This document shows positions 5,338 to 54,575 of a stretch of DNA of 64,000 nt, piece by piece. Under the pieces are notes generated by a model. It did not search any database and had not been told where the DNA came from. It saw nothing but the letters and a program-made list of their open reading frames with translations. Source of the stretch: Mesorhizobium sp. GTDB lineage: Bacteria > Pseudomonadota > Alphaproteobacteria > Rhizobiales > Rhizobiaceae. Both the position numbers and the translations under genes were made by a program. Numbering within the stretch: the stretch's first letter is position 1; the number at the start of each line of letters is the position of its first letter. The stretch is from the NCBI RefSeq assembly GCF_016793485.1, contig NZ_JAEULZ010000001.1:310001-374000 (forward strand). Reading direction: 5' to 3'.

Positions 5338-8300
5338 TCAGGCCCGCCCGAATCCCCCGGCCGTCGGCGTGGTGACGATCACCGCCTCGCCGGGTTGCAG
5401 TACGGTCTGGTCGCAAGCCTTCAGCGTCTCGACGCGGCCGTCCGCCCTGCGCACCTCGGTCTTGCCGGGCATGCCGTTGCCGCCGCCCGCGATCCCCTCC
5501 GGCGGGCGGTTGCGGTGCGACGAGAGGATCGCGCATTCCATCTTCTCGAGGAAGCGGATCGTGCGCTTGGTGCCGTCGCCGGCGCTCCACTTGCCCTTGC
5601 CGCCGGAACCCTCGCGGATGTGGAAGTCTTCCAGCAGCACCGGGAAGCGCAGTTCCAGCACCTCCGGGTCGGTCAGGCGCGAATTGGTCATGTGCGTGTG
5701 CACGCCCGATGTGCCGCCAAACCCGCGGCCGTCGTTCATCTGGCCGGCTGGCGAGCCCGAGCAGATCGTCTCGTAATACTGGTACGTCGCGTTGCCGTAG
5801 GTGAGGTTGTTCATCGTCCCCTGAGCGTTCGCCAGCGCGCCCATCGCGCCGAACATGGCGTTGGTCACGTGTTGCGACGTCTCGACATTGCCGGCGACGA
5901 CGGCGGCCGGATAGGACGGCCGCAGCATGCACCCTTCGGGAATGATGATGTTGATCGGCCGCAGGCATCCCGCGTTCATCGGGATGTTGTCCTCCACCAT
6001 GACACGGAAGGCATAGAGCACCGCCGCGCGCGCGACCGGCTCCGGCGCGTTGAAGTTGTTCTTCATCACTGGCGACGTGCCGGTAAAATCCACCGTCGCC
6101 TCGCGCTTCTTGCGATCGACAGTGATCTTCACCCGGATCGCCTGGCCGGTGTCGGTCGGATATTCGTATTCGGAGCTGTCGGGCAGGCGTTCCAGCACGC
6201 GGCGCACGCTCTCGGCAGCGTTGTCCTGCACATGGCCCATATAGGCTTCGACCACGTCCAGCCCGAAATGCGCGACCATCTTGCGCAGTTCGGCCACGCC
6301 CTTCTCGTTGGCGGCGATCTGTGCCTTCAGGTCCGCGATGTTCTGCGCCGGGTTGCGGCAGGGGTAGGGGTGGTCGGTCAGGATGCCGTGCAGTTCCTTC
6401 TCCAAGAAGGTACCGCGATCGACGATGCGGAAATTGTCGATCAGCACGCCTTCCTCGTCCACTGTCGTCGCCAGCGGCGTCATCGATCCCGGCGCGCTGC
6501 CGCCGACATCCGCATGGTGGCCGCGCGAGGCCGAATAGAAGAGGATTTCCTTGCCGGCGTCGTCGAACACCGGCGTCACGACCGTGATATCAGGCAGATG
6601 CGTGCCGCCATTGTAGGGCGCGTTCAGCGCGAACACGTCGCCCGGATGGATGTCGCCCTCGTTCAGGCGGATGATCGTCTCGACCGATCTGTCCATCGAT
6701 CCCAGGTGCACGGGCATGTGCGGCGCGTTGGCGACGAGCGCGCCGGTGCGGTCGAAGACCGCGCATGAGAAGTCGAGCCGCTCTTTGATGTTCACCGACG
6801 AGGCCGTGTTCTGCAGCGTCACGCCCATCTGCTCGGCGATCGACATGAACAGGTTGTTGAAGACTTCCAGCATCACCGGATCGGCTTCCGTGCCGAGCGC
6901 GGCCTGTCGCTGCTTCCTCTCCGTGCGCGAGAGCAGCACATGGTCCTTCGCGGTGATCTCGGCGCCCCAACCGGGCTCGACGACGATGGTCTGGTGGCTC
7001 TCGATCACCAGCGCCGGCCCGGCGATCTTCTGGCCCGGCTTCAGCGCCTCGCGGCGGAACACGGCAGCATCGTGCCATTCGCCAGCGCAGAACATCTTGC
7101 GCGTCTCGGCCGCCTTGGCGGTCTCGCCGGAAATCTCCCGGTCGGTCTCGTCGCGACCCGAGACGCGGCCGTCCTGGCCCTGGATTTCCACCGTCTCGAT
7201 CACCAGCTTCCGGTCCGGGTAGGTGAAGCCGAACTGCGCCTTGTGCGAGGTCTCGAACGCCTTGCGGGCGTCGGCTACGGAAAGGCCGGCATAGTTGATC
7301 GGCAGGGCCGTATCGGTGCCGTCGTAGCGAACATGAAGAATCGGCCGCCACGAGACCATGTCTTCCGGTACGCCCTGCGCACCGAGTTCGGCAAACACCG
7401 GCTCACGCAGCGCGTCGATCGCGTCGTCGATCTCGACTGATGTCTCGTCGGCCAGCAGCCGGATGAATCCTTGCTGGCGCGAGGCAAAGACGCCAGACAT
7501 GCCGATGCCGTAGGCCGACAGCAGGCCGGAGAAGGGGTGGATGAGCACCGACTGCATGCCGAGCGCATCGGCCACGAGGCACGCATGCTGGCCGCCTGCG
7601 CCGCCGAAGCAATTCAGCAGGTAGCCGGTCACGTCATAGCCGCGCTGCACCGAGATTTTCTTGATGGCGTTGGCCATGTTCTCGACGGCGATGGTGACGA
7701 AGCCCTCCGCCACCGCTTCAGCCGTGCGTCCGTCGCCGATCTCGCTCGCAAGTGCCGCGAACTTCCCGCGCACGGTCTCGGTGTCCAGCGGCTGGTCCTG
7801 TCCGGGACCAAAGATCGCCGGGAAGAAGTCGGGTTGCAGCTTGCCGAGCATCACATTCGCGTCGGTGACCGCCAGCGGCCCGCCGCGCCTGTAGCAGGCG
7901 GGGCCGGGGTTGGCGCCGGCTGAATCCGGGCCGACCCGAAAACGTCCGGCGTCGAAATGCAGGATCGAGCCGCCGCCAGCCGCGACCGTGTGGATGCGCA
8001 TCATCGGCGCGCGCACGCGCACGCCGGCCACCTCGGTGTCGAAGGCGCGCTCATATTCGCCATCATAGTGCGCGACGTCGGTCGACGTGCCGCCCATGTC
8101 GAAGCCGATCACCTGCTCGAAGCCGGCAAGCTTCGCCGTCTCAACCATGCCGACCACGCCGCCGGCCGGCCCCGACAGCAGCGCATCCTTGCCCTGGAAC
8201 ATGTCGGCCGCCGTCAGCCCGCCCGACGACATCATGAACATCAGGCGGGGCGCTTCCTTACCCTCCCCCTTGCGGGGAGGGTGGCCCGCAGAGCCGGGTG

Positions 8301-9111
8301 GGAGTGGTGAGGAATGCTCTGTGGCTACTGGATCGAGTGCGTCGCCGCGACCCCCACCCCGGCCGGCTTCGCCGTCCGACCCTCCCCGCAAGGGGGAGGG
8401 TGAAGCGCCTAACTCCCGGCTCACCTGGCTCACATAGCGGCGCAGAATGGGCGACAGGTAGGCATCCACAACCGTCGTATCACCGCGACCGACGAGCTTC
8501 ACCAGCGGCGACACCTCGTTGCTGACCGAAATCTGCGAGAAGCCCGCCTTGCGGCAGACCTTCGCGACCGCCTTCTCGTGATCGGGGAATTTCCAGGCAT
8601 GCATGAAGACGATCGCCACCGCGTCGATACCGTCCTTCTTCGCCTGTTCGATCGCAGGCTTGACCGCTTCGATGTCGAGCAGCTTCTCTACCGTGCCGTC
8701 GGCGCGTACGCGCTCCTCGACCTCGATCACCCGTTCATAAAGCTGTTCGGGCAGGATGATCTCCTTGGCGAAGATGTCGGGCCGCGCCTGATAGGCGATG
8801 CGCAACGCGTCGCGGAAACCCTTGGTGATCAGCAACAGCACGCGGTCGCCCTTGCGCTCCAGCAGCGCGTTGGTCGCCACCGTCGTGCCCATCTTGATCT
8901 CACCGACCGAACCGGCGGGAAAAGCCTCTCCGGACTTCAGCCCGAGCAGGTCGCGGATGCCCTGGATGGCTGCGTCGCGATAGGCCTCCGGGTTCTCGGA
9001 AAGCAGCTTGCGCGCATGCAGCCCGCCCTGCGGATCGCGTCCCACGATATCGGTGAAGGTGCCGCCGCGATCGATCCAGAAATCCCAGTTACCCAAGTTG
9101 CCGGTCGACAT
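5338..9111 (-). CDS. 5-oxoprolinase / N-methylhydantoinase (fused HyuA-HyuB)
   Basis: 1257 aa. The N-terminal HyuA half begins [13 protein letters not shown] (~residues 13-25), has [15 protein letters not shown], and contains [16 protein letters not shown] (~334-349), the ATP-binding signatures of the ASKHA-like fold. The HyuB half starts around residue 745 ([21 protein letters not shown]...). Single-chain A-B fusions of this length are typical of ATP-dependent 5-oxoprolinase, which opens 5-oxo-L-proline to glutamate; hydantoinase or acetophenone-carboxylase-like substrates cannot be excluded. Residues ~237-284 are not part of the family: they are encoded by a palindromic repeat (8260-8402) inserted in frame in the loop before [10 protein letters not shown]. 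Divergent from a winged-helix regulator 104 bp away. Confidence 0.9.
8260..8402 (-). repeat. Palindromic repeat element inserted in frame in the oxoprolinase gene (copy 1)
   Basis: About 143 bp with inverted terminal arms. The left arm starts with ACCCTCCCCCTTGCGGGGAG and the right arm carries the reverse complement of the same 23 bp. Each end is itself a CCCTCCCC/GGGGAGGG hairpin, and imperfect pairing extends inward (GAGCCGGGTGGG against AGCCGGCCGGGGTGGG). Translated with the host gene it gives [18 protein letters not shown], a variable core, then GHPPRKGEG. The same arms and the same two peptides occur in uvrD (53544-53706), while the cores differ. Boundaries are approximate because no target duplication is obvious. 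Confidence 0.9.
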
Positions 9112-13597: not shown

Positions 13598-13994
13598 GCC
13601 AGCCGGCCGGGCGGCCGCGCCCGCGAGAACCGAAAGGTTGCGGGTGAGGAAAGTCCGGGCTCCATGGAGACACGGTGCCGGCTAACGGCCGGCGGGGGCG
13701 ACCCCAGGGAAAGTGCCACAGAAAGCAAACCGCCTCGATTACTCGGGGTAAGGGTGAAAGGGTGGGGTAAGAGCCCACCGCGCGACCGGCAACGGAAGCG
13801 GCAGGGCAAACCCCACCGGGAGCAAAACCGAATAGGGGCGGTCGAGGGGCAACCCTCAGGGCTGTTTCCGGCCCACCGCCCGGGTAGGTTGCGTGAGGCC
13901 GTCGGCAACGACGGTCCAAGATGAATGGCCGCCACGTTCTCTGGTCCGCAAGGCCCGGAGGGCCATACAAAACCCGGCTTATAGGCCGGCTGGC
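13598..13994 (+). ncRNA. rnpB: RNase P RNA, bacterial class A
   Basis: The universal 5' core GAGGAAAGTCCGGGCTCC is present at ~13646, followed by ACAGAAA, the AGGGTGAAAGGGTG...GGTAAGAGCCCACCG block at ~13750-13780, and the 3' CAAAACCCGGCTTATAGGCC. The ends pair to form P1: GCCAGCCGGCC at 13598-13608 with GGCCGGCTGGC at 13984-13994. The RNA is the catalytic subunit that trims 5' leaders from tRNA precursors. An ATTTTTTCG run directly after P1 serves as the terminator. Ends are inferred from P1 pairing, good to a few bases. Confidence 0.96.
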
Positions 13995-14001
13995 ATTTTT
14001 T
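13983..14001 (+). terminator. rnpB 3' end, P1 strand plus T-run
   Basis: The 3' strand of rnpB helix P1 is followed immediately by ATTTTTT. The next gene is convergent (stop at 14086), and the remaining ~85 bp hold nothing recognisable. Confidence 0.6.
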
Positions 14002-37108: not shown

Positions 37109-38776
37109 ATGCTCGCGCGCCTGTCGATCCGAGATATCGTCCTGATCGAGCGGCTGGATATCGACTTCGCGCCCGGCCTCTCAGTGCTGACCGGCGAGAC
37201 CGGCGCAGGAAAGTCCATTCTTCTCGATGCGCTCTCACTGGCGCTTGGCGCGCGCGGCGACGCCTCGCTGGTGCGCCAGGGTGCCGCGCAGGGGCAGGTC
37301 ACCGCCGTGTTCGACGTGCCGCGTAATCATCCCGCGCGCGCCATCCTCATCGAAAATGCGCTCGATGACGACGGCGACATCATCCTGCGCCGCGTCCAGA
37401 CTTCCGACGGCCGCACCCGCGTCTTCGTCAACGACCAGCCGTCCAGCGTCACGCTGATGCGCGACATCGGCCGCGCGCTGGTCGAATTGCACGGCCAGCA
37501 TGACGAGCGCGCGCTTGTCGATCCCGCCGCCCATCGCGACCTGCTCGACGCTTTCGGCGGCCATGTCGGTGAAGCCGACAACTGCGCGGGCGCCTGGCGC
37601 TTGTGGCGCGACTGCGAGCAACAGCTTGGCCTCCACCGCGCGCGCGTCGAGGCGGCTGCGCGAGAGGCCGACTATCTGCGCGCCTCGGTCGCCGAGCTGT
37701 CGCGCCTCGATCCGCAACCCGGCGAGGAAAGCGAGCTTGCCGAAACACGGACTTTCATGATGCGGGCTGAAAAGGTCGCCTCGGAAATCCAGGACGCGCA
37801 GGACGTGCTGTCCGGTCAGAACTCGCCGCTGCCGCAACTTGCCAGCCTGCTGCGCCGCCTGCAGCGAAAGTCGGGCGAAGCGCCTGGCTTGCTGGACGAG
37901 GTGGTGAAATCGCTGGACGAGGCGCTGATCCATCTCGACGCCGCCCAGTCGGCCACCGATGCCGCGCTGCGGGCGACCGAGTTCGATGCCCAGAAGCTGG
38001 AGCGCGCGGAGGAACGGCTTTTTGCGCTGCGCGCCGCTGCGCGCAAATTCTCCGTCACCGTGGACGACCTCGCCAAGGCTCGCGACACCATGGTCGCCGA
38101 TCTCGCCGACCTCGACGCCGGCGAGGAGAAGCTTGCAGCGCTTGAGAAGCAGGCTGGCGCAGCGCGCGAGGCGTACGACCGCGCCGCCAAGCGCCTGACC
38201 GAGTTGCGCATCGCTGCCGCTCTTGCGCTCAGGAAGGCCGTCATGGCGGAACTTCCGGCGCTGAAGCTTGATCGCGCCGAGTTCCTTGTCGAGATATCCA
38301 CCGAACCCGACAACCGGACCGAATCCGGCGTCGACCAGGTCGAGTTCTGGGTGCGCACCAATCCGGGCACACGCGCCGGTCCTATGATGAAGGTGGCCTC
38401 CGGCGGCGAGTTGTCGCGCTTCCTGCTGGCCCTGAAAGTCGCGCTGGCCGACCGCGGCTCCGCGCCGACGCTCGTCTTCGACGAGATCGACACGGGCGTC
38501 GGCGGTGCGGTCGCCGACGCGATCGGCCAGCGCCTCGCGCGGCTCTCCGCACGCGTCCAGGTGCTGTCGGTCACGCATGCCCCGCAGGTCGCCGCCCGTG
38601 CCGCGACGCATTTCCTGATCTCCAAGTCCGGCAAGAAAAGCGTCTCGACCAGCATCGCCGCGATCGACGCGGCCGGCCGTCAGGAAGAACTCGCCCGCAT
38701 GCTCGCTGGCGCCACCATCACCGACGAGGCCCGCGCCGCCGCCGCCCGGCTGCTTGGCGAAAGCGCTGGGGCTTAG
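37109..38776 (+). CDS. recN: RecN, SMC-like DNA repair protein
   Basis: 555 aa. MLARLSIRDIVLIERLDIDF begins an SMC-type head; Walker A is TGETGAGKSILLDALSLALGAR (~28-48). Two coiled-coil arms flank a shortened hinge (~160-360). VASGGELSRFLLALKVAL is the ABC signature and LVFDEIDTGVGGAVADAIGQRLARL Walker B/D-loop. RecN acts in double-strand break repair and is usually LexA-controlled, but I see no clear SOS box upstream. A bamD-recN-ligA order is common in rhizobia. Confidence 0.96.
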   Translation: MLARLSIRDIVLIERLDIDFAPGLSVLTGETGAGKSILLDALSLALGARGDASLVRQGAAQGQVTAVFDVPRNHPARAILIENALDDDGDIILRRVQTSDGRTRVFVNDQPSSVTLMRDIGRALVELHGQHDERALVDPAAHRDLLDAFGGHVGEADNCAGAWRLWRDCEQQLGLHRARVEAAAREADYLRASVAELSRLDPQPGEESELAETRTFMMRAEKVASEIQDAQDVLSGQNSPLPQLASLLRRLQRKSGEAPGLLDEVVKSLDEALIHLDAAQSATDAALRATEFDAQKLERAEERLFALRAAARKFSVTVDDLAKARDTMVADLADLDAGEEKLAALEKQAGAAREAYDRAAKRLTELRIAAALALRKAVMAELPALKLDRAEFLVEISTEPDNRTESGVDQVEFWVRTNPGTRAGPMMKVASGGELSRFLLALKVALADRGSAPTLVFDEIDTGVGGAVADAIGQRLARLSARVQVLSVTHAPQVAARAATHFLISKSGKKSVSTSIAAIDAAGRQEELARMLAGATITDEARAAAARLLGESAGA

Positions 38777-38786
38777 GGCACCTCTC

Positions 38787-38809
38787 CCTTCTCCCCTTGC
38801 GGGAGAAGG
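38787..38809 (+). terminator. 9-bp hairpin after recN, part of a dispersed repeat
   Basis: CCTTCTCCC - CTTGC - GGGAGAAGG: a perfect 9-bp stem 11 bp after the recN stop, with no T-run. It heads a typical rhizobial dispersed repeat that continues through TAGGCGCGTAGCGCCGAGA to ~38845. It may act as an mRNA 3'-end structure. Confidence 0.5.
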
Positions 38810-38865
38810 TGGCTAGGCGCGTAGCGCCGAGACGGATTAGGGGTTGCGTGCGCTCCCATTTCGGG

Positions 38866-39374: not shown

Positions 39375-41594
<2,220 letters not shown>

Positions 41595-51851: not shown

Positions 51852-54575
51852 TCACGCCGCCTGGACGAACCCGTCCAGCACCTTCTTCTGGCCGGCCTTG
51901 TCGAAATTCACGGTCAGCTTGTTGCCTTCGACCGCAGCGACGTTGCCGTTGCCGAACTTCTGGTGGAACACGCGGTCGCCGATCTTGAAGGGGGAGGGCG
52001 TGTCCGAAACAGACTTGGCGACCAGCTCGCCGTCGATGGTGCGCGCTTTCACGGAGGTGCGGCCGGCGCCGTAGCCGCTGTCTGTCTCGCCATAGCCGAT
52101 GCGCTCGACCTGATGGCCGGAGCGCGTGCCCCAGTTGCGATCCGTCGCTTCCGTGCGGTTGGCCTGAGCGCGGGCCCAGCCGGGGGTGGCGTAGGTGTTC
52201 GAGAAAGAGCCGCTGCCACTGCCGATATTGTCGAAACGCGATGCACCGTATGGGTTTTGCCGACCGCCACCGCGACCCGAGGCGAAACCACCGCCGCCAT
52301 AGGGATTGCCGTAGCCGCCATAGGTGTTGCCGGCTTCGGCCACTTCGACATGCGCTTCGGGCAGTTCGTCAAGGAAGCGTGAGGCTATGGTGGACTGCCA
52401 GAGGCCGTGGATGCGCCGGTTCGACACGAACCAGATGTGCAGGTGCTTCTTGGCGCGCGTCAGGCCGACATAGGCGAGACGGCGTTCCTCCTCCAGGCCG
52501 GAGCGGCCGCCTTCGTCGAGCGCTCGCTGGTGCGGGAACAGGCCCTCTTCCCAGCCGGGCAGGAAGACCGTGTCGAATTCCAGCCCCTTGGCCGAATGCA
52601 GCGTCATGATGTTGACGGCGTCGAGCTCGGCGTTCTGCTCGGCGTCCATGACCAGCGCGACGTGTTCGAGGAACGAGCGCATCGACTCGTACTCCTCCAT
52701 CGAGCGGATGAGTTCCTTGAGGTTTTCGAGCCGTCCGGGCGCTTCCGCCGAACGGTCGTTCTTCCACATGTCGGTGTAGCCGGACTCCTCGAGAATGGTC
52801 TCGGCGAGTTCGGTGTGCGGCTTGCTTTCGAGGGCGGCCTGCCAGCGGGCAAAGTTCGCTGCGACCTCGCGCAACGCCGCGCGGGGCTTCGGCTTCAGCT
52901 CGTCGCTTTCGGCAAGGATGCCGGCTGCGGCCAGCATGGGGACGCCAAGCCCGCGCGCGGTGTCGTGGATCTGGCGGATGGTCGCTTCGCCAAGACCACG
53001 CTTCGGGACGTTGACGATGCGCTCGAAGGCTAGATCGTCCGCGCCCTGTGCCACGACCCGGAAAAAGGCCATTGCGTCGCGGATTTCCTGCCGCTCGTAG
53101 AAGCGGGGGCCGCCGATGACGCGGTAATTCAGCCCGATCTCGATGAACCGGTCTTCGAAGGAGCGCGTCTGGAACGATGCGCGCACGAGGATGGCCATGT
53201 CGTTCAGGTTGTGGCCGCGTCGCTGCGCCTGTTCGATCTCCTCGCCGACGGCTCGCGCCTCCTCGTCGGAGTCCCATGCTGCGTGCACCATGACCTTGGC
53301 GTCTTCAGGCTCGTCGCGGTCGGTGAAAAGCGTCTTGCCGAAGCGACCTTCATTGTGGGCAATGAGATGCGAGGCCGCGCCAAGAATATGCGCCGTGGAG
53401 CGGTAGTTGCGTTCCAGCCGGATGATGGTCGCGCCCGGAAAATCCTTGTCGAAGCGCAGGATGTTGTCGACCTCGGCGCCGCGCCAGCCGTAGATCGACT
53501 GGTCGTCATCGCCGACGCAGCAGATGTTGACGGTCGAGGCGTTACCCTCCCCTTTGCGGGGAGGGTGGCCCGTAGGGCCGGGTGTGGGTGGCGACCCATG
53601 CGCCGTGCCGTCTGAACTTGCTGTGACGCCCTGAGCCGTCGATGAATCGGGACGACCCCCACCCCGCCCGGCTTCGCCGTCCGACCCTCCCCGCAAGGGG
53701 GAGGGTGAGCTCGGCCTCTGCGCGAGCAGTCGCAGCCAGAGATATTGCGCCGTGTTGGTGTCCTGGTACTCGTCGACGAGGATGTAGCGGAACTTCTTGT
53801 GGTATTCCTTCAACACATCCGGGTTTTCCCGGAAGATCCTGATCGGGTGGCACAAAAGGTCGCCGAAGTCGCAGGCGTTCAGGGTCTTCAGCCGTTCCTG
53901 ATAGGCACGGAAGAGTTCGCGGCCCTTGCCGTTGGCGAAGCTGCGCGCATCGCCTTCGGGGATTTGCTCCGGCCCAAGCCCCTTGTTTTTCCAACCGTCG
54001 ATCATCATGGCGAACTGGCGTGGCGGCCAGCGCTTGTCGTCGAGGTTCTCCGCCTGGATGAGCTGGCGGACGAGCCGGATGACGTCGTCGGTGTCGAGGA
54101 TGGTGAAGTCGCTTTTCAGCCCGGCAAGTTCGGCATGCCGGCGCAGGAGCTTCACGCCAATCGAGTGGAAGGTGCCGAGCCACGGCATGCCTTCGACGTT
54201 CTCTTCGCCGATCAGCATGCCGATGCGATGCTTCATCTCGCGGGCGGCCTTGTTGGTGAAGGTGACGGCGAGGATCTGCGATGGGTAGGCACGGCCGGTG
54301 GCCAGAATGTGGGCGATGCGGGTAGTGAGCACGCGCGTCTTGCCTGTGCCGGCGCCTGCAAGGACCAAGACCGGTCCCTCCGTCGTCTCGACAGCAAGCC
54401 GCTGTTCGGGGTTCAGGCCATTCAGGTAAGCCAGAGGCTCGGGACGCCCATGCCTGGCGGCCATGGCGCGCGCGGCAAGCCCCGACGGCTGTCGCGCATG
54501 CGGGACATGCGCGGCCTCGCGGCGAGGCTTCGGCTCCTCGTCGAAAAAGGGCATGTCGTCGGGAAAGTCCACCAT
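51852..54575 (-). CDS. uvrD: UvrD/PcrA-type superfamily 1 DNA helicase
   Basis: 907 aa. Motifs in order: Q motif LNPEQRLAVE, Walker A VLAGAGTGKTRVL (~70-82), LAVTFTNKAAREMK, GTFHSIG, motif II ILVDEYQDTN (~269-278), motif III CCVGDDDQSIYGWRGA (~349-364), motif IV LERNYRS, and MTLHSAKGLEFDTVFLPGWEEGLFPH. A Gly/Tyr-rich linker (~785-815) leads to a Tudor-like end (FKIGDRVFHQKFGNGNVAAVEGNKLTVNFD). It unwinds DNA in excision and mismatch repair. Residues ~290-344, between motifs II and III, are encoded by an inserted palindromic repeat (53544-53706) absent from family relatives such as E. coli UvrD. Confidence 0.95.
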   Translation of the reverse strand: MVDFPDDMPFFDEEPKPRREAAHVPHARQPSGLAARAMAARHGRPEPLAYLNGLNPEQRLAVETTEGPVLVLAGAGTGKTRVLTTRIAHILATGRAYPSQILAVTFTNKAAREMKHRIGMLIGEENVEGMPWLGTFHSIGVKLLRRHAELAGLKSDFTILDTDDVIRLVRQLIQAENLDDKRWPPRQFAMMIDGWKNKGLGPEQIPEGDARSFANGKGRELFRAYQERLKTLNACDFGDLLCHPIRIFRENPDVLKEYHKKFRYILVDEYQDTNTAQYLWLRLLAQRPSSPSPLRGGSDGEAGRGGGRPDSSTAQGVTASSDGTAHGSPPTPGPTGHPPRKGEGNASTVNICCVGDDDQSIYGWRGAEVDNILRFDKDFPGATIIRLERNYRSTAHILGAASHLIAHNEGRFGKTLFTDRDEPEDAKVMVHAAWDSDEEARAVGEEIEQAQRRGHNLNDMAILVRASFQTRSFEDRFIEIGLNYRVIGGPRFYERQEIRDAMAFFRVVAQGADDLAFERIVNVPKRGLGEATIRQIHDTARGLGVPMLAAAGILAESDELKPKPRAALREVAANFARWQAALESKPHTELAETILEESGYTDMWKNDRSAEAPGRLENLKELIRSMEEYESMRSFLEHVALVMDAEQNAELDAVNIMTLHSAKGLEFDTVFLPGWEEGLFPHQRALDEGGRSGLEEERRLAYVGLTRAKKHLHIWFVSNRRIHGLWQSTIASRFLDELPEAHVEVAEAGNTYGGYGNPYGGGGFASGRGGGRQNPYGASRFDNIGSGSGSFSNTYATPGWARAQANRTEATDRNWGTRSGHQVERIGYGETDSGYGAGRTSVKARTIDGELVAKSVSDTPSPFKIGDRVFHQKFGNGNVAAVEGNKLTVNFDKAGQKKVLDGFVQAA
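53544..53706 (-). repeat. Palindromic repeat element inserted in frame in uvrD (copy 2)
   Basis: About 163 bp with the same inverted arms as 8260-8402: one end begins ACCCTCCCCTTTGCGGGGAG, the other is its near reverse complement CCCTCCCCGCAAGGGGGAGG. The right arms (GCCCGGCTTCGCCGTCCGAC) match copy 1 almost base for base, whereas the central ~60 bp are unrelated. The translation is again [18 protein letters not shown] ... GHPPRKGEG. The insertion falls in the short surface loop between helicase motifs II and III, where length change is tolerable. Confidence 0.9.

Follow-up and report, generated by a model that had tools for sequence, protein, structure and literature searches.

Unrelated Palindromic Repeats Recur in Frame in One Loop of the UvrD Helicase across the Hyphomicrobiales

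A single loop of the DNA helicase UvrD, that between helicase motifs II and III, is filled recurrently across an order of bacteria, the Hyphomicrobiales, by palindromic repeats that are unrelated to one another, and this recurrence is the main point of interest of the present analysis. The case described at length lies in a 64,000-nucleotide stretch of a Mesorhizobium sp. genome (assembly GCF_016793485.1, contig NZ_JAEULZ010000001.1, positions 310,001 to 374,000 of the forward strand; hereafter the window). Here a uvrD/pcrA-type DNA helicase gene encoding 907 aa (51852..54575, minus strand; open reading frame [ORF] and profile matches) carries a 163-bp element at 53544..53706, likewise on the minus strand, which search, alignment, and translation identify as a dimer of repetitive extragenic palindromic (REP) units read in frame as a peptide ending in GHPPRKGEG. 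The insert stands between motif II (DEYQDTN) and motif III (GDDDQSIYGWRG), and the coordinates given for it by an initial annotation of the window are exact. We found no report of recurrent filling of the UvrD loop in the open-access literature, a search that did not extend to supplementary tables such as the 2013 list of intragenic REPs.

Results

We compared 110 UvrD loci, a nonrandom sample of 30 from a genome search, the window's locus among them, plus the best 80 of 588 matches from named genomes; at least four loops occur in both sets, and the stretch from motif II to motif III is readable in 109 loci, all but L204. It is short (20–26 aa) in 49 of the 109 and reaches up to 110 aa in the rest. 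Measured against the congener G002, 50 of 103 UvrD proteins, mostly from Hyphomicrobiales (after removal of four duplicate rows and of two in which no Walker A was recognised), have at least eight extra residues in the loop, and none of the 103 has an insertion of eight residues or more in the 585-residue core outside it; the core test was run on 78 proteins and then repeated on all 103.

Five kinds of repeat could be labelled, by motif and by eye, each in at least three UvrD rows scattered over the tree: the window's own family (L031, L175, and L146), ATCTCCCCC hairpins (L046, L212, and L043), CTCTCCCCG-like palindromes (nine rows, label C), CGTC REPs with the published tag, stem, and tail (L187, L190, L197, and L206), and VIPG-type inserts (six rows, label V, two of them with arms like those of Br-REP1). 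Nine further rows give looser matches to the CGTC tag and lack the A-T-first stem. Kind C is dispersed in its host genomes: a first query found it so in five of nine genomes searched, with 45 matches in G033, and a second in seven of seven, but with only one match in G077 and six in G076. Kind V is dispersed in all six of its genomes (approximately, the query having been partly guessed), and the CGTC kind in all four genomes searched.

On a FastTree tree built from the UvrD proteins minus the loop, the ten kind labels need 35 changes. The scatter of V (6 rows), E (4), A (3), and B (3) over the tree matches that of shuffled labels. Starred branches force at least four changes for V, four for E, three for A, two for B, and six for C, changes that may be gains or losses. 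Near-sister UvrDs carry different kinds, L188 (V) versus L206 (CGTC REP) and L183 versus L190, both forks being starred, and the window's genus includes one short loop, one with the window's element, and two of another kind. Loop length as such is clustered (15 changes for long versus short loops, against a shuffled mean of 34.3). Short loops prevail in Rhizobium and are found in all three rows named Agrobacterium; those of L202, recorded as Rhizobium alarense, and L156, recorded as R. paknamense, are longer, and in a 99-starred fork of Bradyrhizobium, Rhodopseudomonas, Nitrobacter, and neighbours all 20 rows are long.

Three smaller observations concern these loops. Those of L175 and L191 look stacked, with more than one kind of palindromic peptide, as if later repeats had hit earlier ones. 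Among the long loops that hold no labelled palindrome (L032–L034, L036, L038, L143, and L144), several have SEN-like residues at their end, and the loops may preserve an ancient insert, now decayed, common to Mesorhizobium-like genera. In the metagenome locus L177:1001–3556 a stop codon falls within the UvrD match.

The window's 907-aa protein matches the Pfam models UvrD-helicase and UvrD_C, both above their own cut-offs, and TIGR01073 (PcrA) at E 2.1e-228, though below that model's curated cut-off. The named UvrDs closest to it, among the matches listed (the best 80 of 588), are from Mesorhizobium and reach no more than 82% in the best segment. The initial annotation called the helicase essential, for which our analysis provides no support; uvrD is dispensable in E. 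coli. The motif II–III stretch is 80 aa in the window's UvrD versus 24 aa in congener G002 (L045), a difference of 56 codons. When the protein is aligned to E. coli DNA helicase II (3lfu), its residues 285 and 348 lie opposite chain residues 237 and 240, so that the insert replaces about two residues.

The element is composed of two half-elements in inverted orientation, which we described by a covariance model, R1. The first (53544..53589, plus strand; R1 E 9.6e-8) consists of a hairpin ACCCTCCCCTTTGCGGGGAGGGT, a second hairpin GGCCCGTAGGGCC, and a tail GGGTGTGGGT; the second (53655..53706, minus strand; R1 E 4.6e-10) consists of the hairpin, a second hairpin CGGACGGCGAAGCCGGGCG, and a tail GGGTGGGGGT. 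The general plan is thus a hairpin with a 9-bp stem (ACCCTCCCC...GGGGAGGGT) and a 5-nt loop, a second hairpin of variable sequence, and the G-rich GGGTGGGGGT tail. The ends of the element are inverted repeats (local alignment score 47, with none of 2000 letter shuffles as high). Across 25 half-elements the proposed structure pairs 90.5% of cells, and shifting the pairing partners by one to three columns lowers this to 46%–56%. The second hairpin covaries, with 44 cells changed on both sides versus a mean of 15.1 in shuffles, none of 500 of which reached that number, and two-sided changes in seven of its seven pairs. Folded as RNA, the uvrD copy is far better than its shuffles (z −5.0).

A sister element of 142 bp lies in frame at 8260..8401 (minus strand; BLAST, translation, and alignment of relatives) in a hydantoinase/oxoprolinase gene encoding 1257 aa (5338..9111, minus strand; ORF and profile matches). 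The initial annotation had paired the two copies, and most of what it said of the pair holds: they are read in the same frame and have unrelated cores, the alignment between cores (53590..53654 in the uvrD copy) stopping at 5 bases. The copies are collinear and 74% identical. Of the flanking peptides that the initial annotation gave as 18 and 9 residues, the second, GHPPRKGEG, is right and the first is a run of 19. The copies do share an orientation, as claimed, which carries little meaning because the element is an inverted repeat.

The element is also not limited to this pair of copies and is dispersed genome-wide. Used as a BLAST query, it has 77 matches in its own genome at E ≤ 10. R1 gives 65 matches over 46 sites at E ≤ 0.1 and, at E ≤ 1e-3, at least 41 half-elements at at least 29 sites, at least 12 of them with both halves; these counts are lower bounds because 150 of 3907 first-look candidates were scored. 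Inspection of open frames covered 42 of the 46 sites (C22, C43, C52, and C49:348786 were left out) and found in-frame copies in eight recognised genes, those for UvrD, hydantoinase/oxoprolinase, CobN, HrpB, UvrB, a coenzyme A (CoA) ligase, XdhC, and a Suv3-like helicase, all eight among the 29 sites at E ≤ 1e-3. The tally sets aside six further translated ORFs and the remaining sites, such as a 468-aa frame at L139, and the census, which the initial annotation had proposed as a refuting check, is a partial one, to which gene-breaking copies are invisible because only frames open through the element were listed.

Some of these genes have other peculiarities. CobN (L109), the CoA ligase (L122), and the Suv3-like helicase (L126) carry a second in-frame palindrome of another family (ISPxxGEx), and the N-terminal copy in the CoA ligase may precede the true start. 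A family-B-like palindrome (APPSGLPAISPTRGEI; G000, C21, 156252–156296) is read close to the beginning of the 468-aa frame at L139. Repeat matches of equal score occur near the starts and ends of contigs (C22, C43, and C52 at 82–139; C32 and C34 near their ends); the draft assembly, in 52 contigs, probably breaks at these repeats, and copies may therefore be missed or collapsed.

In seven junctions of six of the genome's own genes (five of the window's family and two of family B), we compared the inserts with three congeners and one more relative; the CoA ligase family-A site and the Suv3-like gene were left out, and some relatives had no usable row for a given gene. By the patterns used in the phase analysis, G002 has no palindrome at any of the seven. 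At five (oxoprolinase, both CobN sites, HrpB, and UvrB) some relative has its own palindromic insert in the corresponding position; part of these inserts belong to the same family and differ in frame or form. At the oxoprolinase place three relatives have other palindromic inserts and one has none. The XdhC junction has no palindromic insert in any of the four relatives, and in the CoA ligase linker, where relatives vary, no palindrome was found by the patterns used. Base-level empty sites are not readable in the congeners because these are too diverged. The element lies in frame in conserved genes for which insert-free relatives exist, as in known coding palindromes.

The use of reading frames is uneven. 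In the eight own genes the right halves are all read in one phase (xPPRKGEG and variants), other hairpin phases being stop-free; the chance of this is 3 × (1/3)^8, or about 5e-4, if phases are equally likely and cases independent, for a pattern noticed post hoc to which uvrD and oxoprolinase contribute closely related sister copies. The left halves vary more, being in phase 0 in three genes and in phase 1 in HrpB. When related genes are counted together with the genome's own, for 24 family-A matches in all, the favoured phase accounts for 10 of 14 R halves and phase 0 for 5 of 10 F halves, so the phase rule is not strict. Family B uses one phase in 12 of 14 cases by script, a thirteenth seeming by eye to be shifted by match start only, and the 11 set C palindromes are in phase 0 in seven, phase 2 in three, and phase 1 in one. 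Orientation in this analysis follows from an approximate rule based on the loop, which leaves it uncertain where loops are symmetric.

A single open frame is ruled out as the cause of this unevenness. No stop interrupts any of the three sense frames of the uvrD copy, and stops occur in all three of its antisense frames; in the oxoprolinase copy two sense and two antisense frames are open, and in the UvrB copy all six are. The idea in the initial annotation of an element with one stop-free frame must accordingly be dropped, while its picture of a coding-compatible, mobile-looking palindrome in a protein loop, with frames unevenly used, is retained.

Discussion

A REPIN is a pair of inverted REPs that flank a spacer, and it goes with a RAYT (REP-associated tyrosine transposase) gene. 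The window's element has the first of these properties, being two short palindromic units inverted around a spacer, in many dispersed copies; no RAYT (Y1_Tnp) gene was found in the window's genome or in three congeners. REPs in frame inside genes, many of them genes for replication and repair and including UvrD/Rep helicase and UvrABC, were described in 2013 (PMC3733652); these GTAG and CGTC REPs, which are mostly intergenic, occur as units and dimers, loops and linkers were suggested as their sites, and the CGTC REPs are without a dedicated transposase. The same paper gives as CGTC features a CGTC/TGTC/CCTC tag beside the stem, A-T first pairs, a CCA tail, an 8–9 bp stem, and a 4–5 nt loop. 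The window's insert (L031) agrees in its stem and loop lengths and has no tagged stem, nor was a GTAG tag found beside its stem in a scan of stems of 8–13 bp with at most one mismatch; tag, A-T-first stem, and CCA tail are all present in the four CGTC inserts of other UvrDs. The window's element further differs from GTAG and CGTC REPs by its second, covarying hairpin. In recB of two Xanthomonas, different REPs occupy about the same site, and in other genes different sites (PMC3733652), whereas the UvrD loop recurs across an order.

In-frame palindromes are also described from conserved genes of Rickettsia, Wolbachia, and enterobacteria, among them in-frame fusions with Rickettsia palindromic elements (RPEs) and enterobacterial repetitive intergenic consensus (ERIC) sequences; a gmk insert was tested (PMC2229807, PMC10969869), as were translation and activity of one RPE-bearing enzyme (PMC2229807). 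The RPE and Wolbachia palindromes are, like ours, of about 100–150 bp and in frame in conserved alphaproteobacterial genes; RPEs belong to another host order, and the likeness is one of description, the window's element being known here from sequence alone. Br-REP1 and Br-REP2 of Bradyrhizobium are placed in intergenic regions and 3′-UTRs (PMC5082802); by eye, the VIPG-type UvrD inserts L185 and L195 have ATCTCGAG/CTCGAGAT arms similar to those of Br-REP1. In the light of these precedents, the initial annotation's proposal of a new class cannot stand: the element is an untagged, two-hairpin, REPIN-like (cf. PMC3116915) REP dimer, a variant of known repeats.

We think it probable that selection retains mobile REP-dimer palindromes wherever the protein tolerates them and that the motif II–III loop is the most tolerant place in UvrD. 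Non-autonomous repeats of this sort would be spread through the genome by some enzyme, and most landings within genes would destroy the protein and be lost. A landing that keeps the frame would be readable as peptide because the arms are G+C-rich and stop-poor in every frame, and would add a stretch rich in Pro, Gly, and charged residues, presumably translated, probably disordered, and neutral enough to survive where a loop or linker tolerates it. Being the most tolerant place, the UvrD loop would be filled repeatedly across the order by whichever palindromic family was active in each lineage.

Several observations weigh against this account. The Y1/RAYT transposase profile PF01797 has no match in the window's genome (G000; a draft in 52 contigs) or in three congeners, with matches in 9 of 61 genomes overall and positive controls in 5 of 14 named genomes, and by eye no target-site duplication is readable in the flanks; because neither transposase nor duplication was seen, mobility is something we infer. 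Copy number and a filled loop do not correspond one to one. R1 at E ≤ 1e-3 matches 18 of 21 chosen genomes, with at least 33 matches in G003, at least 2 in G001, none in G002, and at least 145 in G078 (150 candidates scored in each); G031 has at least 22 matches yet a 24-aa UvrD loop, and no R1 match occurs in G019 or G030, whose long loops are filled by other kinds. Half of the long-loop rows (28 of 56, from 11 aa up, "other_long") fall outside the labelled kinds. The comparison of label scatter with shuffled labels has little power, each label group holding from 3 to 9 rows. Phases are used more unevenly than open frames alone would require, a hint of selection on the peptide or the mRNA. 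In favour of the account, an AlphaFold2 model of UvrD (42 alignment rows) places insert residues 291–346, between a helix (275–285) and a strand (351–355), at a pLDDT (predicted local confidence) below 50 and without secondary structure; its overall quality is mediocre (mean pLDDT 68.4, pTM [predicted fold score] 0.42), and core residues 359–373 and 390–420 are also low. The model therefore suggests disorder of the insert weakly, since it is middling as a whole.

Other explanations can be set against the same data. Insertions in the loop might alter UvrD activity, for instance toward a mutator state, and selection might favour their gain and turnover; REP-tagged genes are often genes of replication and repair, and Di Nocera et al. 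(2013) speculate on mutators (PMC3733652). UvrD, UvrB, HrpB, and the Suv3-like helicase are among our eight genes, and the Bradyrhizobium-side fork has long loops in every row. The oxoprolinase, CobN, CoA ligase, and XdhC genes are not repair genes, however, and several unrelated repeats and peptides occupy the one loop, so we regard such tuning as unlikely. Equally speculative is its boldest form, in which the loop would be an evolutionary port that active palindromes enter in a preferred frame, turnover between sister species tuning the helicase and perhaps the mutation rate. That the repeats instead prefer a DNA site that happens to be in uvrD would account for a single, very narrow site within the gene; with unrelated kinds sharing that site, an insertion point that by eye (from flank lengths) seems variable within the loop, and other in-gene sites that show no obvious common flank by eye, we find targeting of this kind highly improbable.

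We also doubt that an old insert was inherited vertically and later overwritten by gene conversion between repeats. The unlabelled long loops, which include related loops in Mesorhizobium-like genera, mean that some inserts may be old and decayed; even so, sister UvrDs differ in kind (L188/L206 and L183/L190), labels are scattered on the tree, and the window's genus alone mixes a short loop, this element, and another kind. An assembly error or pseudogene is scarcely credible: repeats do break assemblies, and some contigs start or end near this one, but the uvrD copy sits deep within a 671,791-base contig, its 907-aa reading frame is unbroken, and inserts occur in the same loop in numerous other assemblies.

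If selection does retain palindromes where proteins tolerate them, the UvrD loop suggests a way in which genomes take up mobile repeats and keep important machinery working. In-frame repeats have so far been mostly scattered cases; one much-sampled loop is a natural insertion experiment, which makes the neutrality of inserts testable and marks recent repeat activity. It also counsels caution, as in these bacteria a disordered stretch of a repair enzyme can be of repeat origin and not an evolved domain.

Elsewhere in the window, the sole match to Rfam at gathering thresholds over the whole stretch is a bacterial class A RNase P RNA gene at 13599–13997 (plus strand; RF00010, 310.5 bits). A weak half-element match (R1 E 0.054) lies at 38786–38845 on the plus strand, between an ORF ending at 38776 and one starting at 39426, which we take to be recN-like and ligA-like, respectively.

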